22,011 nucleotides of DNA from a virus, in the IMG/VR virus record IMGVR_UViG_3300018057_000045, positions 1 to 22,011 of that record; one strand, given 5' to 3'. A model generated the notes under the pieces. The model saw only the letters and a program-made list of their open reading frames with translations. It had not been told where the DNA came from and did no database searches. Shown here piece by piece: positions 1-22,011 of this stretch (position 1 is the stretch's first letter; the number at the start of each line of letters is the position of its first letter). A program made the translations under genes and the position numbers.

Positions 1-420
1 TGGGCACCTTGGTGGTGGTTCGGGTTTCCGACGAAGGACTCTATCGAGTTAGTGCGGCGTCCTGTGCAGTCGAGCCTGAGTCCGGCGGTCGCGCCCGAAG
101 TGACGTACAACGACGCGAACGGCGACAAGCAGACGCTCGACCCGTCCACTTACACGGTGAGTTGCGACAAGATTACGCTGAACGTCGGTGCAACATGGCC
201 GCTGACCGACCGCAAGCAGGACTGCATTCAGATAACGTATCCGGCGGGCTACGGTGACACGGCTGACACAGTTCCTTCGCAGTTGAAGCTGGCCGTGATG
301 TTTCTCGCGGCGCACTTCTACGAGAACCGCGCCATCGCAACCATCGAGCCGACATCAGAGACGTACATGACGCTGATGTCGCTGCTACAAAGTTTTCGCA
401 GCTACAGAATACCGAGATAA
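1..420 (+). CDS. Head-tail connector protein (phiE125 gp8 / HK97 gp6-like), 5'-truncated
   Basis: The frame is open from the first base, so the start lies to the left; the GTG at 52 is internal to the frame. The 139 visible residues show the pattern of the phiE125 gp8 / HK97 gp6-like connectors: VTYNDANG and TLDPSTY in a strand-rich section, then YPAGYG, and a C-terminal helix with LAAHFYENR. In characterised siphoviruses this protein forms the ring below the portal that links the head to the tail. It ends two bases before the head-closure gene and is part of a tightly spaced plus-strand series. The family call rests on remembered motif similarity; the N-terminus cannot be judged. Confidence 0.82.
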   Translation, partial: WAPWWWFGFPTKDSIELVRRPVQSSLSPAVAPEVTYNDANGDKQTLDPSTYTVSCDKITLNVGATWPLTDRKQDCIQITYPAGYGDTADTVPSQLKLAVMFLAAHFYENRAIATIEPTSETYMTLMSLLQSFRSYRIPR

Positions 421-422
421 CC

Positions 423-800
423 ATGAGCATTCCTAAGAGACTATCGACCGGCGTGCGCTACGTCAGCGCCGGTGAGTTCAACTGCCAAGTGACCTTCACA
501 CAGCCGAACGCAGGCGCGGAAGGCGACGGCACGCCGCACGACGAGACGGTTGTCAAGGCAAACGTCTGGGCGAAGGTGTCGCAGTGGCGCGGCAAAGAGA
601 GCGACAAGGCGCAAGAACGCACTGCCGTGTCGAGTTACAAGATGTCGCTTCGCTATCCGAAGACGTTTTCTGTGGACACGGGAATGAACATCCTGCTACG
701 CGGTCAGCGTCATAACATCGAGTCTTTTGCGGACCCGGACGGGCAGCGCGTTCAGCTAGACATTTGGACGTGGGTTGAGAACGACGCAGTGAGCAACTAA
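423..800 (+). CDS. Phage head closure / head-tail adaptor protein
   Basis: This 125-residue protein matches the SPP1 gp16 / HK97 gp7-like head-tail adaptor family in length and layout: an N-terminal beta segment with FNCQVTFTQPNAG, a VWAKVSQWRGKE section in the middle, and a C-terminal barrel with ILLRGQRHNIESFADPDGQR. Such proteins cap the connector and are the docking site for the tail. It starts with ATG two bases after the connector stop, so translation is probably coupled; the upstream Shine-Dalgarno is weak. The order connector, closure, DUF3168, gp10-like is close to standard for HK97-type phages and supports the call. Confidence 0.82.
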   Translation: MSIPKRLSTGVRYVSAGEFNCQVTFTQPNAGAEGDGTPHDETVVKANVWAKVSQWRGKESDKAQERTAVSSYKMSLRYPKTFSVDTGMNILLRGQRHNIESFADPDGQRVQLDIWTWVENDAVSN

Positions 801-810
801 GGGAGCGAGC

Positions 811-1212
811 ATGTTAGAGAAAGGCTTGTACGCACTCATCACGACCGACGCTGGAGTCTCAGCGCTCATTGGAACGCGAGCGTATTGGGTGCTCGCGCCT
901 AAAGGTTCCGCTCTGCCGCAGGTTGTTCTAGCGCGCGTGACCACAGAGGATACCTACGACACGCAAGGCGCAACTGGTCTTCGAGATGCGGTCGTGCAGG
1001 TGGACTGTTACGCGGCGGACTTCTACGGAAGCCGCGCCATCTCGCTTGCTGTTCGCAAACTGCTGGAGAGCTACAAAGGGACGCTTGCTGATGGCACGCG
1101 CGTCTCGGCAGTCATAACGCGGAAAGACTGGGACATGCCTTACGAAGAAGGCGGTAAGGGCTTCGTGTACCGAGCGCTGCTTGAGTTCAGCATTCACCAT
1201 TACGACGTGTAG
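811..1212 (+). CDS. DUF3168 tail completion / tail terminator-like protein
   Basis: The 133 residues fit DUF3168: an N-terminal helix LEKGLYALITTDAGVSALIG, then YWVLAPKGSALPQVVLARV, a central VVQVDCYAADFYGSRAISLA and a C-terminal strand ending FVYRALLEFSIHHYDV. In known siphoviruses proteins of this family terminate tail-tube polymerisation or join the tail to the head. It has a good GGGAG Shine-Dalgarno before the ATG and follows the head-closure gene by 10 bases. Nothing in the sequence is odd. The function is family knowledge; only the family resemblance is seen here. Confidence 0.82.
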   Translation: MLEKGLYALITTDAGVSALIGTRAYWVLAPKGSALPQVVLARVTTEDTYDTQGATGLRDAVVQVDCYAADFYGSRAISLAVRKLLESYKGTLADGTRVSAVITRKDWDMPYEEGGKGFVYRALLEFSIHHYDV

Positions 1213-1223
1213 GACGGAGTCGA

Positions 1224-19904: not shown

Positions 19905-20130
19905 ACACAGGGCGTCAGAAACCGCGCTCGGCTGCATAGCAAGGCCGAGCATGGTAGCGGAAGCCAAGAACAGAAAAAGCAAGGGTTCGCCGGTCCCGCG
20001 TGGAAGACCCCACGCCCTACCGTCAAAGACATGGCGAACGTGACACTCGGCGCTTCACGGGGACCGCAACTGCGCGGTCGAATCCACTGCCGCTTACTAC
20101 CAGACGGCTCCAAACCATAAGGAGTCGTGC

Positions 20131-21402
20131 GTGCCCGCATTATCCGAACCTTTGACCACCGAGTTGCTGCCCTGCCCGCCCAACGGTACCATTGCGACCG
20201 CGACGACGATACGGCGGAAAAGGGGACCATCCTTGAGCCGTCGTACAGGACAAAGTGGTAGCGTGTTCCAACAGAATCAAAACTCGTGGAATCCAGCAGC
20301 ACCCGCTTATGGTCGCTTCTGGGTTGACTCTCCGGAGGGCCGAAAGCGCCGGGTAATTTCGCTGGGCGTGTGCACCACGCGCACCGTTGCCAAGCGAAAA
20401 CTCCGCGAGCACATCGAATCCGAGGGCGTCAATTCCGCAGCGACCCTCATTTCAACCACAACACCGGGTACGACTTTCCGCGAACAGGCAAAGCGGTGGA
20501 TTGCTTCGCTTGCCACGCGCCGTCGTCGTCCGGTCAAACCCGCCACGATTTTTGGCTGGCAGCACGCACTGGACAAATGGATTCTCCCGACCCTCGGTGA
20601 TAAGCCAGTGGCCGATGTTTCCAATGCCGCGCTCAAGCTGCTACTCGAAACGATGGCGGCTGGCGGGCTGTCCGCAAAGACAATCGTGAACTACGCGCAG
20701 GTTCCAAAGATGGTGGTCGCGTCGGTAGTCACCGCCGAGGGGGAGCAAGTTTACCCGCGAACATGGAACCACGATTTCATGGGGCTGCCCATCATTGATC
20801 CAAACAAACAGCACCGGCCTACCGTGACCGAGACGGAAGTTGGTGCTCTTACAACCAGTGCCGCGTATCGTTTCGCGGTCCTGTTCGCCTTGCTTGCAGG
20901 TGCCGGATTGCGGGCGGGTGAGGCCCTTGCGGTTAAGGCGACCGACTTCTCGTCAGATTTTCGCGTGCTTCATGTGACGCGTTCCATCTGGCACGGTCTG
21001 GAGCAGGACCCCAAGACACCGGCGGCAATCCGCGAAGTGGACATCGCGGAGCCGCTGGCCGCATTGCTGCGGGTGTACGCGGAAGGCAGGACCGGATACT
21101 TGTTCGCCACGCGGAGCGGGCGACCGGTTGCTCAGCGGAACGTACACCGGGCAGCCGGTGTTGGCCTTCACGCGTTTCGGCGATTCCGTACCGAGACTCT
21201 TCGCCGGGCGCGCGTGCCGGAGGACCTCATCGCATTGTGGCTTGGGCACGCGCCCAAGTCGGTGACTGACCTCTACGCGGGCGGGTTGCAGCATGACCTA
21301 GCTTGGCGGCGTGAATGGTGCGACCGCGTCGGGCTTGGTTTTTCAGTTGGGCTAATTGGGGCTAGAAACAACGCGCCACTTGCGTTGCAGAAAGCCGCGT
21401 AA
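20131..21402 (+). CDS. int: Tyrosine-recombinase integrase
   Basis: The 423-residue protein starts at a GTG with AAGGAG upstream. The N-terminal half has a short arm-binding-like segment (WNPAAPAYGRFWVDSPEGRK, RVISLGVCTTRTVAKRKLRE) and a SAM-like core-binding domain (TTFREQAKRWIASL…WILPTLGDKPVADVS). The catalytic domain holds Arg261 in GAGLRAGEAL, Lys295 in the DPKT hairpin, HAFR with His347 and Arg350, LGH with His373, and Tyr382 in VTDLYAGG, so all catalytic residues are present. It ends 25 bases from the tRNA-Asn 3' end. It would integrate and excise the prophage there. The spacer 19905-20130 has no recognisable gene. Confidence 0.93.
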   Translation: MPALSEPLTTELLPCPPNGTIATATTIRRKRGPSLSRRTGQSGSVFQQNQNSWNPAAPAYGRFWVDSPEGRKRRVISLGVCTTRTVAKRKLREHIESEGVNSAATLISTTTPGTTFREQAKRWIASLATRRRRPVKPATIFGWQHALDKWILPTLGDKPVADVSNAALKLLLETMAAGGLSAKTIVNYAQVPKMVVASVVTAEGEQVYPRTWNHDFMGLPIIDPNKQHRPTVTETEVGALTTSAAYRFAVLFALLAGAGLRAGEALAVKATDFSSDFRVLHVTRSIWHGLEQDPKTPAAIREVDIAEPLAALLRVYAEGRTGYLFATRSGRPVAQRNVHRAAGVGLHAFRRFRTETLRRARVPEDLIALWLGHAPKSVTDLYAGGLQHDLAWRREWCDRVGLGFSVGLIGARNNAPLALQKAA

Positions 21403-21427
21403 CCCGATGACAGGGCGGGAAATAAAA

Positions 21428-21502
21428 TGGCTCCTCAGGTAGGACTCGAACCTACAACCCTCCGGTTAACAGCCGGATGCTCTGCCATTGAGCTACTGAG
21501 GA
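21428..21502 (-). tRNA. tRNA-Asn (GUU)
   Basis: The minus strand folds as a full cloverleaf: acceptor TCCTCAG/CTGAGGA, D stem GCTC/GAGC, anticodon stem TCCGG/CCGGA with loop CTGTTAA (anticodon GTT at 21468-21470), T stem GTAGG/CCTAC with TTCGAGT, discriminator G and an encoded CCA (21428-21430). The gene is intact and most likely functional. Confidence 0.97.
21428..21502. other. Probable prophage attachment site within the tRNA-Asn gene
   Basis: The integrase lies directly beside the tRNA 3' end and host-type sequence follows its 5' side, so the crossover very likely lies in the 3' part of the tRNA gene. The exact core cannot be set, because the second att copy is outside the window to the left. 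Confidence 0.65.
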
Positions 21503-21790
21503 GTGGGAGCAACACGCTTGCCTGCGTGCTGAATTGTCAACGAAATCATATCAGAGGCTGCAGCCGATTGGAAACTCGCGAGTCCGAGGTGCGTTGAACG
21601 ATCAGCAGGCGGCTGTTTCATCGCATCAGCTCACCACCGGTTCTCTCCCGAGAGAGCCAAGATTATTCTTTCGAATCGTGGGCCGCAGGATCATCGTGGG
21701 GCATCGCCGCCGCCAGTAGGGCGCGCCCGTGGGCCACTGTTCTGCTAACCTAATCCTCGGCGTCTCGTCCACAACAGGAGTGAGGTGTTC

Positions 21791-22011
21791 ATGCTGGGAG
21801 GTTCGCGTTTGCTGACTTTTTTCCTGATTTTTCTCATCGGTGTGGTTGCCCTGGTCTGCGCGGAGGATTCCCGGGCTGGGGATTCCACCGCTCCTTCTAG
21901 TCCGAGCGGTCCTCCGAAAGCCAAAGTTGTTCCGGTCGAGGACACCGTCCAGGGGCACAAAATCGTCGATCGCTACCGCTACCTCGAAGATCCGAACGAT
22001 CCCGACACCCA
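21791..22011 (+). CDS. Secreted prolyl oligopeptidase-like protein, 3'-truncated (host gene)
   Basis: ATG at 21791 follows AGGAGTGAGG. The first ~27 residues form a signal peptide or membrane anchor (SRLLTFFLIFLIGVVALVC), then a Ser/Pro-rich linker (SPSGPPKAK) and VEDTVQGHKIVDRYRYLED with PNDPDT at the window edge. The 'DxYRYLED' start of the propeller domain is typical of prolyl oligopeptidases (family S9A), which cleave after proline in short peptides. The catalytic domain is outside the window. Both CCWGG sites of the window lie in this gene. The 288 bases between it and the tRNA hold no recognisable gene. Confidence 0.85.
   Translation, partial: MLGGSRLLTFFLIFLIGVVALVCAEDSRAGDSTAPSSPSGPPKAKVVPVEDTVQGHKIVDRYRYLEDPNDPDT

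Follow-up and report, generated by a model that had tools for sequence, protein, structure and literature searches.

A prophage with an EcoRII-type restriction cassette is free of CCWGG

Does a phage that carries a restriction system keep the target of that system in its own DNA? The question is raised by IMG/VR record IMGVR_UViG_3300018057_000045, a stretch of 22,011 bases that is here called the window and is the complete record. It contains a prophage from a soil bacterium; the left end of the prophage is cut by the record. The prophage carries a cassette of a Dcm/EcoRII-type methylase, an EcoRII-type endonuclease and a Vsr endonuclease. The same prophage lacks CCWGG, the word that such a cassette would be expected to recognize.

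CCWGG and the restriction cassette of the window

The window contains two CCWGG sites in its 22,011 bases, at 21850 (CCTGG) and 21949 (CCAGG). Both lie beyond a tRNA-Asn gene at the prophage edge. The exact count agrees with the original prediction, which had read the sequence by eye and found no site before these two. The prediction also spoke of well over a hundred CCAG and CCTG places, and 141 are counted (66 CCAG and 75 CCTG). The CCSGG sites that it named at 734, 2957 and 18585 are all present, among 50 in the window.

Positions 1–21502 contain no CCWGG, against 31.2 expected from a maximal-order Markov model (Poisson p 3e-14). The strong deficit that was predicted is therefore borne out, but the predicted expectation of about 43 sites, based on equal base frequencies, is somewhat high. 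CCSGG is normal in the same region, with 48 observed and 52.7 expected. Synonymous-codon shuffling of 26 mechanically chosen open reading frames (ORFs), covering 84% of the sequence, gives a mean of 37.7 CCWGG and a minimum of 23 over 100 shuffles, compared with 0 observed. The shuffled expectation was too high in two of four control records (observed versus shuffled: 117 vs 132 in Burkholderia phage KL3 and 137 vs 160 in G080) and too low in the other two (96 vs 84 and 88 vs 80).

CCAGG/CCTGG is the most depleted 5-mer of the window, and CCWGG is the most depleted of the 53 palindromes with an expectation of at least 10. Milder depletion is seen for GATC (34 vs 75, the next strongest), CCGCGG (0 vs 13) and AGCT (56 vs 92). 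The deficit is thus specific to the W form when set against CCSGG, but it is not the only one among palindromes. CCWGG is avoided in the window below both composition and codon expectation. That a sequence poor in several palindromes lost this word by chance, base composition or codon bias is vanishingly improbable: both expectations and the shuffle minimum contradict it, and CCSGG is normal. We rejected this explanation.

The cassette consists of three genes:

10330..11514, + strand, Dcm/EcoRII-type C5-cytosine methylase (PF00145, 1.8e-78; TIGR00675, 3.7e-87; PDB 3lx6, 5e-86, and 3me5, 1.2e-85)
11521..12690, + strand, EcoRII-type restriction endonuclease with N-terminal and catalytic domains (PF09217, 1.2e-19; PF09019, 2e-51; PDB 1na6)
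12687..13103, + strand, Vsr mismatch endonuclease (PF03852, 2.8e-32; TIGR00632, 6.2e-41)

The methylase gene stands six bases ahead of the endonuclease gene, which the Vsr gene overlaps by 4 bases. The endonuclease scores 71 bits for PF09217 and 175 bits for PF09019 (cut-offs 25) and aligns with EcoRII (PDB 1na6) over residues 21–382 at 3.8e-50. It retains the core KTTCKDRWRQ of the C-terminal domain, which is nearly identical across all six aligned endonucleases and which we take to be catalytic. Domain, TIGR and PDB matches agree with the EcoRII/Dcm/Vsr system that had been predicted. The homology of both enzymes, together with the presence of Vsr, suggests that the cassette cuts and methylates CCWGG.

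The first ~45 residues of the methylase (10330–10465) show a weak resemblance to a FitA-like ribbon-helix-helix (E 0.083) and are perhaps an autoregulator. The methylase of bacterial locus L092 (L092:871-2085) begins alike, as judged by eye. In the G076:C58 set, a ribbon-helix-helix hit was found in one of 35 proteins.

Site-free carriers and loss by selection

A scan with an alignment of the endonuclease yielded 80 carrier loci, kept from 568 confirmed in bacterial genomes, and 52 in viral contigs. A scan of viral contigs with a single endonuclease protein gave nothing useful. Throughout, ratios written x/y are CCWGG observed over expected (Markov). Six site-free carriers with a total of 192.5 kb contain one CCWGG against about 383 expected, and their ORFs contain 0 against 404 by codon shuffle. 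The same absence in some other carriers argues for selection rather than chance.

The ratios are 0/64.5 in 38 kb for G054, 0/107 in 42.5 kb for G055, 1/113 in 47.8 kb for G067 and 0/52 in 32 kb for G076:C58. The single site of G067 is the last five bases of its record. G075:C58 has no site before position 10239, around its cassette (0/15, ~10 kb), and 107 vs 127 in the other 45.5 kb.

G054 belongs to the lineage of the window, with a tail tube protein 76% and an integrase 77% identical. G055 encodes a terminase and GroEL. G067 encodes tape-measure, head, portal and terminase proteins, together with an integrase for which DNA invertases are further matches; the middle part of G067 found no match among phage records at the DNA level. 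G076:C58 contains an integrase near tRNA-Met, a primase-polymerase and, directly 3' of the EcoRII-Vsr cassette, an MvaI/BcnI-family endonuclease gene (L236:8379-9785). No MvaI-like protein was confirmed in viral contigs or matched in phage records. Eight non-cassette proteins of the window found no match in G055, G067 or G076:C58 by tblastn.

In an endonuclease tree of 34 chosen sequences, the window falls in a clade of six (support 94/80), of which all but one are site-free. The complete cases are these five and the distant G067. The remaining clade member, L092, keeps 8 sites within its cassette span and 18 of 19.8 in the surrounding sequence, and adjoins a gene read by eye as belonging to the shikimate pathway. 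L092 is a bacterial contig, and next to its cassette the opposite strand carries another EcoRII-C-like gene, which has diverged (L092:3665-4444).

Two routes could empty a genome of CCWGG: selection against the sites, or mutational decay, in which the methylated C deaminates to T during long carriage of the methylase. A codon-context test pooled over the six site-free elements distinguishes them. Proline before glycine is encoded by CCA or CCT in 0 of 172 cases, compared with 34% of 2527 prolines elsewhere; four carriers that have sites use these codons in 85 of 177 Pro-Gly pairs. Such codons can be lost only through wobble changes, which deamination of methylated C cannot make, and the loss is therefore by selection. 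The codon before tryptophan is NCC in 0 of 198 cases, against 28% before other T-codons. Leucine CTG is absent from the site context (0 of 352, against 31% elsewhere), and it is replaced mostly by CTC and CTT, another change unlike decay. Glutamine is CAA in 91 of 91 site contexts, against 28% elsewhere, a change from CAG that is compatible with both routes.

The lineage does carry a Dcm-type methylase gene, and a few counts lean towards decay. In the window, the decay product CCAAG is a little commoner than expected (65 vs 52.8), and TTG (0.20 vs 0.16) and NCT before tryptophan (0.26 vs 0.23) show small rises. CTAGG, the second such product, shows no excess (9 vs 8.7). In addition, a bacterial contig with the G080 cassette stands at 148/153, so a related cassette, if active, does not itself deplete the DNA around it. 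The codon-context test contradicts decay, which we rejected as very improbable. The same test agrees with the prediction that the lineage has long been selected by CCWGG restriction.

Own system or host enzymes

The remaining features of the window locate the prophage edge:

1..21427, prophage part, no CCWGG; connector, tail tube and tape-measure families
20131..21402, + strand, tyrosine integrase, adjoins the tRNA (PF00589, 2.4e-6, 27.9 bits, cut-off 27.1)
21428..21502, - strand, tRNA-Asn (gtt), by ARAGORN; host-type homology starts just before it
21791..22011, + strand, start of a host gene that is truncated where the record ends, likely prolyl oligopeptidase (PF02897, E 2e-4, 20.7 bits, under the curated 24)
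21850..21854, + strand, CCTGG, first CCWGG, in host DNA (exact count)
21949..21953, + strand, CCAGG, second CCWGG, in host DNA (exact count)

The structural genes in the record encode a head-tail connector, head closure, tail terminator, tail tube and tape-measure protein. The tRNA-Asn is the probable attachment site. When the sequence from 21001 onwards was used as query, matches to genomes of the G075 family started only at 21417 or 21426, which places the prophage edge there. The flank past the edge was matched in 376 of 398 genomes of that family, with the tRNA only for most matches listed. G531 matches the flank over nearly its full length at 80%, and the peptidase part reaches 92% in others. 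G075 is the Acidobacteria metagenome-assembled genome (MAG) BP7.bin70, and its endonuclease is 79% identical to that of the window. The flank matches, sought within the G075 family, and the likeness of the endonucleases suggest that the host probably lies in or near this family. Against phage records, the DNA of the window matched in the tRNA alone.

Two side observations concern the gene content. A family-2 glycosyltransferase gene (1907–2593) stands among the neck and tail genes, with 40–64% identity in several relatives. The ORFs at 6793–7866 (- strand) and 13534–14346 (+ strand) have degenerate repeats in common (local tblastn, 37–42% identity).

In three genomes of the likely host family, chromosome samples come close to expectation, at 432/482 (G075), 252/306 (G076) and 265/265 (G080). 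They comprise 20 stretches, two of which read N, and small overlaps of joined pieces are counted twice; one G076 stretch, L252, stands at 9/39 on its own. An equally strong deficit, which would count against the original prediction, is not seen in these samples from the likely host family. EcoRII-C was detected in 5 of 297 genomes sampled across the phylum (G075 among them) and, within the G075 family, in 19 of 250 (six from the earlier carrier scan; some partial). Host pressure of this kind therefore exists but is not universal.

The window can also be compared with DUF2460-related loci, close and distant, whose CCWGG ratios span 0–1.24. Examples are G003 (16/59), G006 (7/38), G020 (9/49), G034 (15/68), G039 (10/43) and G007 (125/127). 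At lengths of at least 14 kb, 21 of 23 stand at 0.18–1.12, and the two exceptions, both at 0, are the fragments L028 and L068. A C5 methylase was found in 0 of 53 DUF2460-related records and EcoRII-C in 0 of 50. The EcoRII-C searches of these 50 records and of 37 records of the G067 set ran without a positive; a separate run detected 28 of 28 known carriers. A DUF2460 scan of genome contigs confirmed no relative. As cassette-free relatives are depleted, CCWGG pressure exists without a system of the phage's own.

G067 provides one clear lineage contrast in favour of the own system. While G067 is nearly free of CCWGG, 21 close relatives with a 94–97% identical head protein keep 1–26 sites, at ratios of 0.08–0.62. 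Neither EcoRII-C nor C5 methylase was found in the 16 searched records of these relatives. Across the G067 set, a C5 methylase is found in 5 of 39 records (G067 included), in none of the close relatives. The next most depleted word in G067 is CTAG (4/25).

A number of results weigh against the cassette as the cause of the loss. There is none in the carriers KL3 (129/119), G058 (110/109), G061 (100/100) and G064 (122/80), and CCWGG ranks first among depleted palindromes in only 3 of the 19 other carriers ranked. G628, a 42.5-kb record with no hit to C5 methylase, EcoRII-C or the MvaI family, has one site against 115 expected. Fragments without a detected cassette and with no site include L028 (0/32, 16 kb), L068 (0/34, 14 kb) and L403 (0/16). 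Among the site-free carriers, the most depleted word is not CCWGG in G076:C58 and the G075 stretch. GGWCC is missing from G076:C58 (0/54.5; GGCC 6/116), which has one C5 methylase family hit among 35 ORFs, so a word has been emptied there without a visible own system. The 0/15 of G075 is partly circular, because the edge of the stretch was set where the first site appears; beyond the sites, the edge is supported solely by a GC content of 0.539 vs 0.578. The methylase of G067 was not seen in its record.

The statistics of carriage point the same way. The full set adds KL3, the window and two MAG elements to the complete group of 52 viral carrier loci, with whole records where available. In this set, 6 of 53 carriers and 4 of 129 non-carriers have a ratio below 0.05 (Fisher p 0.066). 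At an expectation of at least 30 the counts are 5 of 45 and 3 of 74 (p 0.15), p is 0.12 without the G075 stretch, and rank tests give p 0.03–0.11. The records, moreover, are not independent. The overall excess of empty genomes among carriers is weak and not significant.

Some definitions bound these numbers. In a first set, 17 enteric-type near-duplicates and L221 were left out, 18 viral carrier loci of the 52; the counts below 0.05 were then 6 among 35 carriers and 5 among 129 non-carriers (p 0.013; p 0.12 with a stricter size limit). G080:C71 and G079:C478 were excluded from both sets as bacterial, which was assumed from their site density. The 129 non-carriers include loci searched for neither C5 methylase nor EcoRII-C, and as IMG/VR records are mostly fragments, "no cassette" means none within the record. 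G065 was counted over 20,000 of its 20,482 bases. The absence of CCWGG does recur in some other carriers, but the overall contrast between carriers and non-carriers is weak (p 0.07–0.15).

Intermediate carriers are G063 (14/59), G074 (38/126), G057 (46/135) and G070 (32/65). Since KL3 and others keep their sites, carriage alone does not force loss, and the proposal that all carriers purge was rejected. A division into site-free phage cassettes and site-bearing bacterial ones proved unclean: beyond L090 and L091, 6 of the 28 remaining bacterial loci also have none in the cassette span (L094, L099, L101, L102, L103 and L104; L099 and L104 are partial). CCWGG exceeds expectation in G064 and in G071 (47/34), possibly as a mark of very-short-patch repair; tblastn finds Vsr in G064 and none in G071.

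Other emptied words occur in phage records, such as GATC in L021 (0/31) and CGCG in G021 (0/94.5) and G621 (0/113). L068 combines its lack of CCWGG with 1/32 for CCSGG, 0/32 for CGWCG and 0/26 for GGWCC. No C5 methylase was found in its record, and one would expect a CCNGG system either in the host of L068 or in sequence beyond the fragment. The locus L413 stands at 0/37, but its whole record at 10/97. No tRNA was found in L233 where the G075 stretch ends, and a Pfam search of five ORFs in or across the stretch found no family.

Host-borne CCWGG restriction might by itself have emptied the genome, with the cassette incidental or taken up because the lack of sites made it tolerable. We regard this as plausible, at somewhat less than an even chance. 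It would account for the depletion of many DUF2460-related records that lack a C5 methylase, for G628, and for the weak contrast between carriers and non-carriers; EcoRII-C in the G075 family would supply enzymes of the right kind. It fits less well with the range of 0.18–1.12 in nearly all of the longer DUF2460-related loci, with the rarity of EcoRII-C across the phylum, and with the difference between G067 and its close relatives. G628, in turn, has lost several words (GGWCC 0/95, GCCGGC 0/30, CTAG 0/29), unlike G067. The opposite extreme, the own system alone, was rejected as too simple, because cassette-free relatives are depleted and G628 is nearly free.

We consider a mixture about evenly balanced between true and false: host enzymes would thin the sites, and the own EcoRII system would complete and maintain the purge in some lineages. 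Host-borne CCWGG enzymes probably acted first, as in the cassette-free relatives. The Dcm-EcoRII-Vsr cassette would then make each leftover site a standing liability. During induction and lytic growth, replicating phage DNA could outrun the methylase, and an unmethylated site could be cut by the phage's own endonuclease. The end state would be a genome that, with or without methylation, lies beyond the reach of its own enzyme, and the methylase would be needed mainly for the chromosome of the lysogen. The original prediction named the phage's own system or related systems of its hosts as the agent. That CCWGG cutting selected the genome stands, and the shares of the two are not settled by the data. 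Its further claim was that the deficit independently supports a CCWGG specificity of the cassette; the deficit alone is no proof of specificity, because cassette-free relatives and G628 are depleted too.

A broader idea is more tentative, and we think it rather unlikely. Some mobile elements that carry a complete restriction–modification system may purge their own site genome-wide, cassette included, and so gain immunity by absence. The endonuclease would be free to act against host and rival DNA but could not touch unmethylated copies of the element, and the methylase would only keep the lysogen alive. If some carriers do purge their own site, the genome records the enzyme as a threat to its bearer. 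A lytic-phase role of the cassette would become testable, and the specificity of uncharacterised phage systems could be guessed from the missing word. Two strategies would also be set apart, protection by methylation as in KL3 and by absence as in the window's group.

Comparison with known systems

Site avoidance and phage-borne EcoRII are each already known. In the titles and abstract openings covered, with subscription journals mostly outside the scope, we found no description of phages that lack the site of their own system. T4-type phages attack host DNA with nucleases while their own genome is immune through modified cytosine; the immunity of the window's phage would instead be absence of the target.

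A survey of site avoidance in viruses, as far as its text was available, reports a CB below 0.1 in 3.9% of site-genome pairs, with sites eliminated completely or almost so in roughly one viral genome in ten (PMC6286503). It paired phages with host-encoded systems and found less elimination in temperate phages. The depletion and elimination of Type II sites that it describes resemble those seen here, and phages' own systems are not treated in the available portion. A virulent phage without several common sites has been described, and host restriction was credited in the part of the report available (PMC3765740).

The EcoRII system (PDB 1na6) has the same endonuclease domains and methylase type as the window. 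The window differs in being phage-borne, in having Vsr in the operon and perhaps in the ribbon-helix-helix-like start of its methylase. According to the accessible part of one report, EcoRII cuts only with two sites (PMC11602122). A single site might therefore be tolerated, and total absence exceeds the need of simple escape.

The closest counterpart is KL3, which has a module of EcoRII-C, Vsr and EcoRII methylase; its authors propose, in the portion available, that the module cuts non-self DNA in the lytic cycle, with self-protection by methylation (PMC3091744). Both cassettes are phage-borne and combine the same three functions. The KL3 endonuclease matches that of the window over residues 177–384 only, and the gene order is methylase-Vsr-endonuclease in KL3 and methylase-endonuclease-Vsr in the window. 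The KL3 genome keeps 129 CCWGG where 119 are expected, and the prophage of the window has none.

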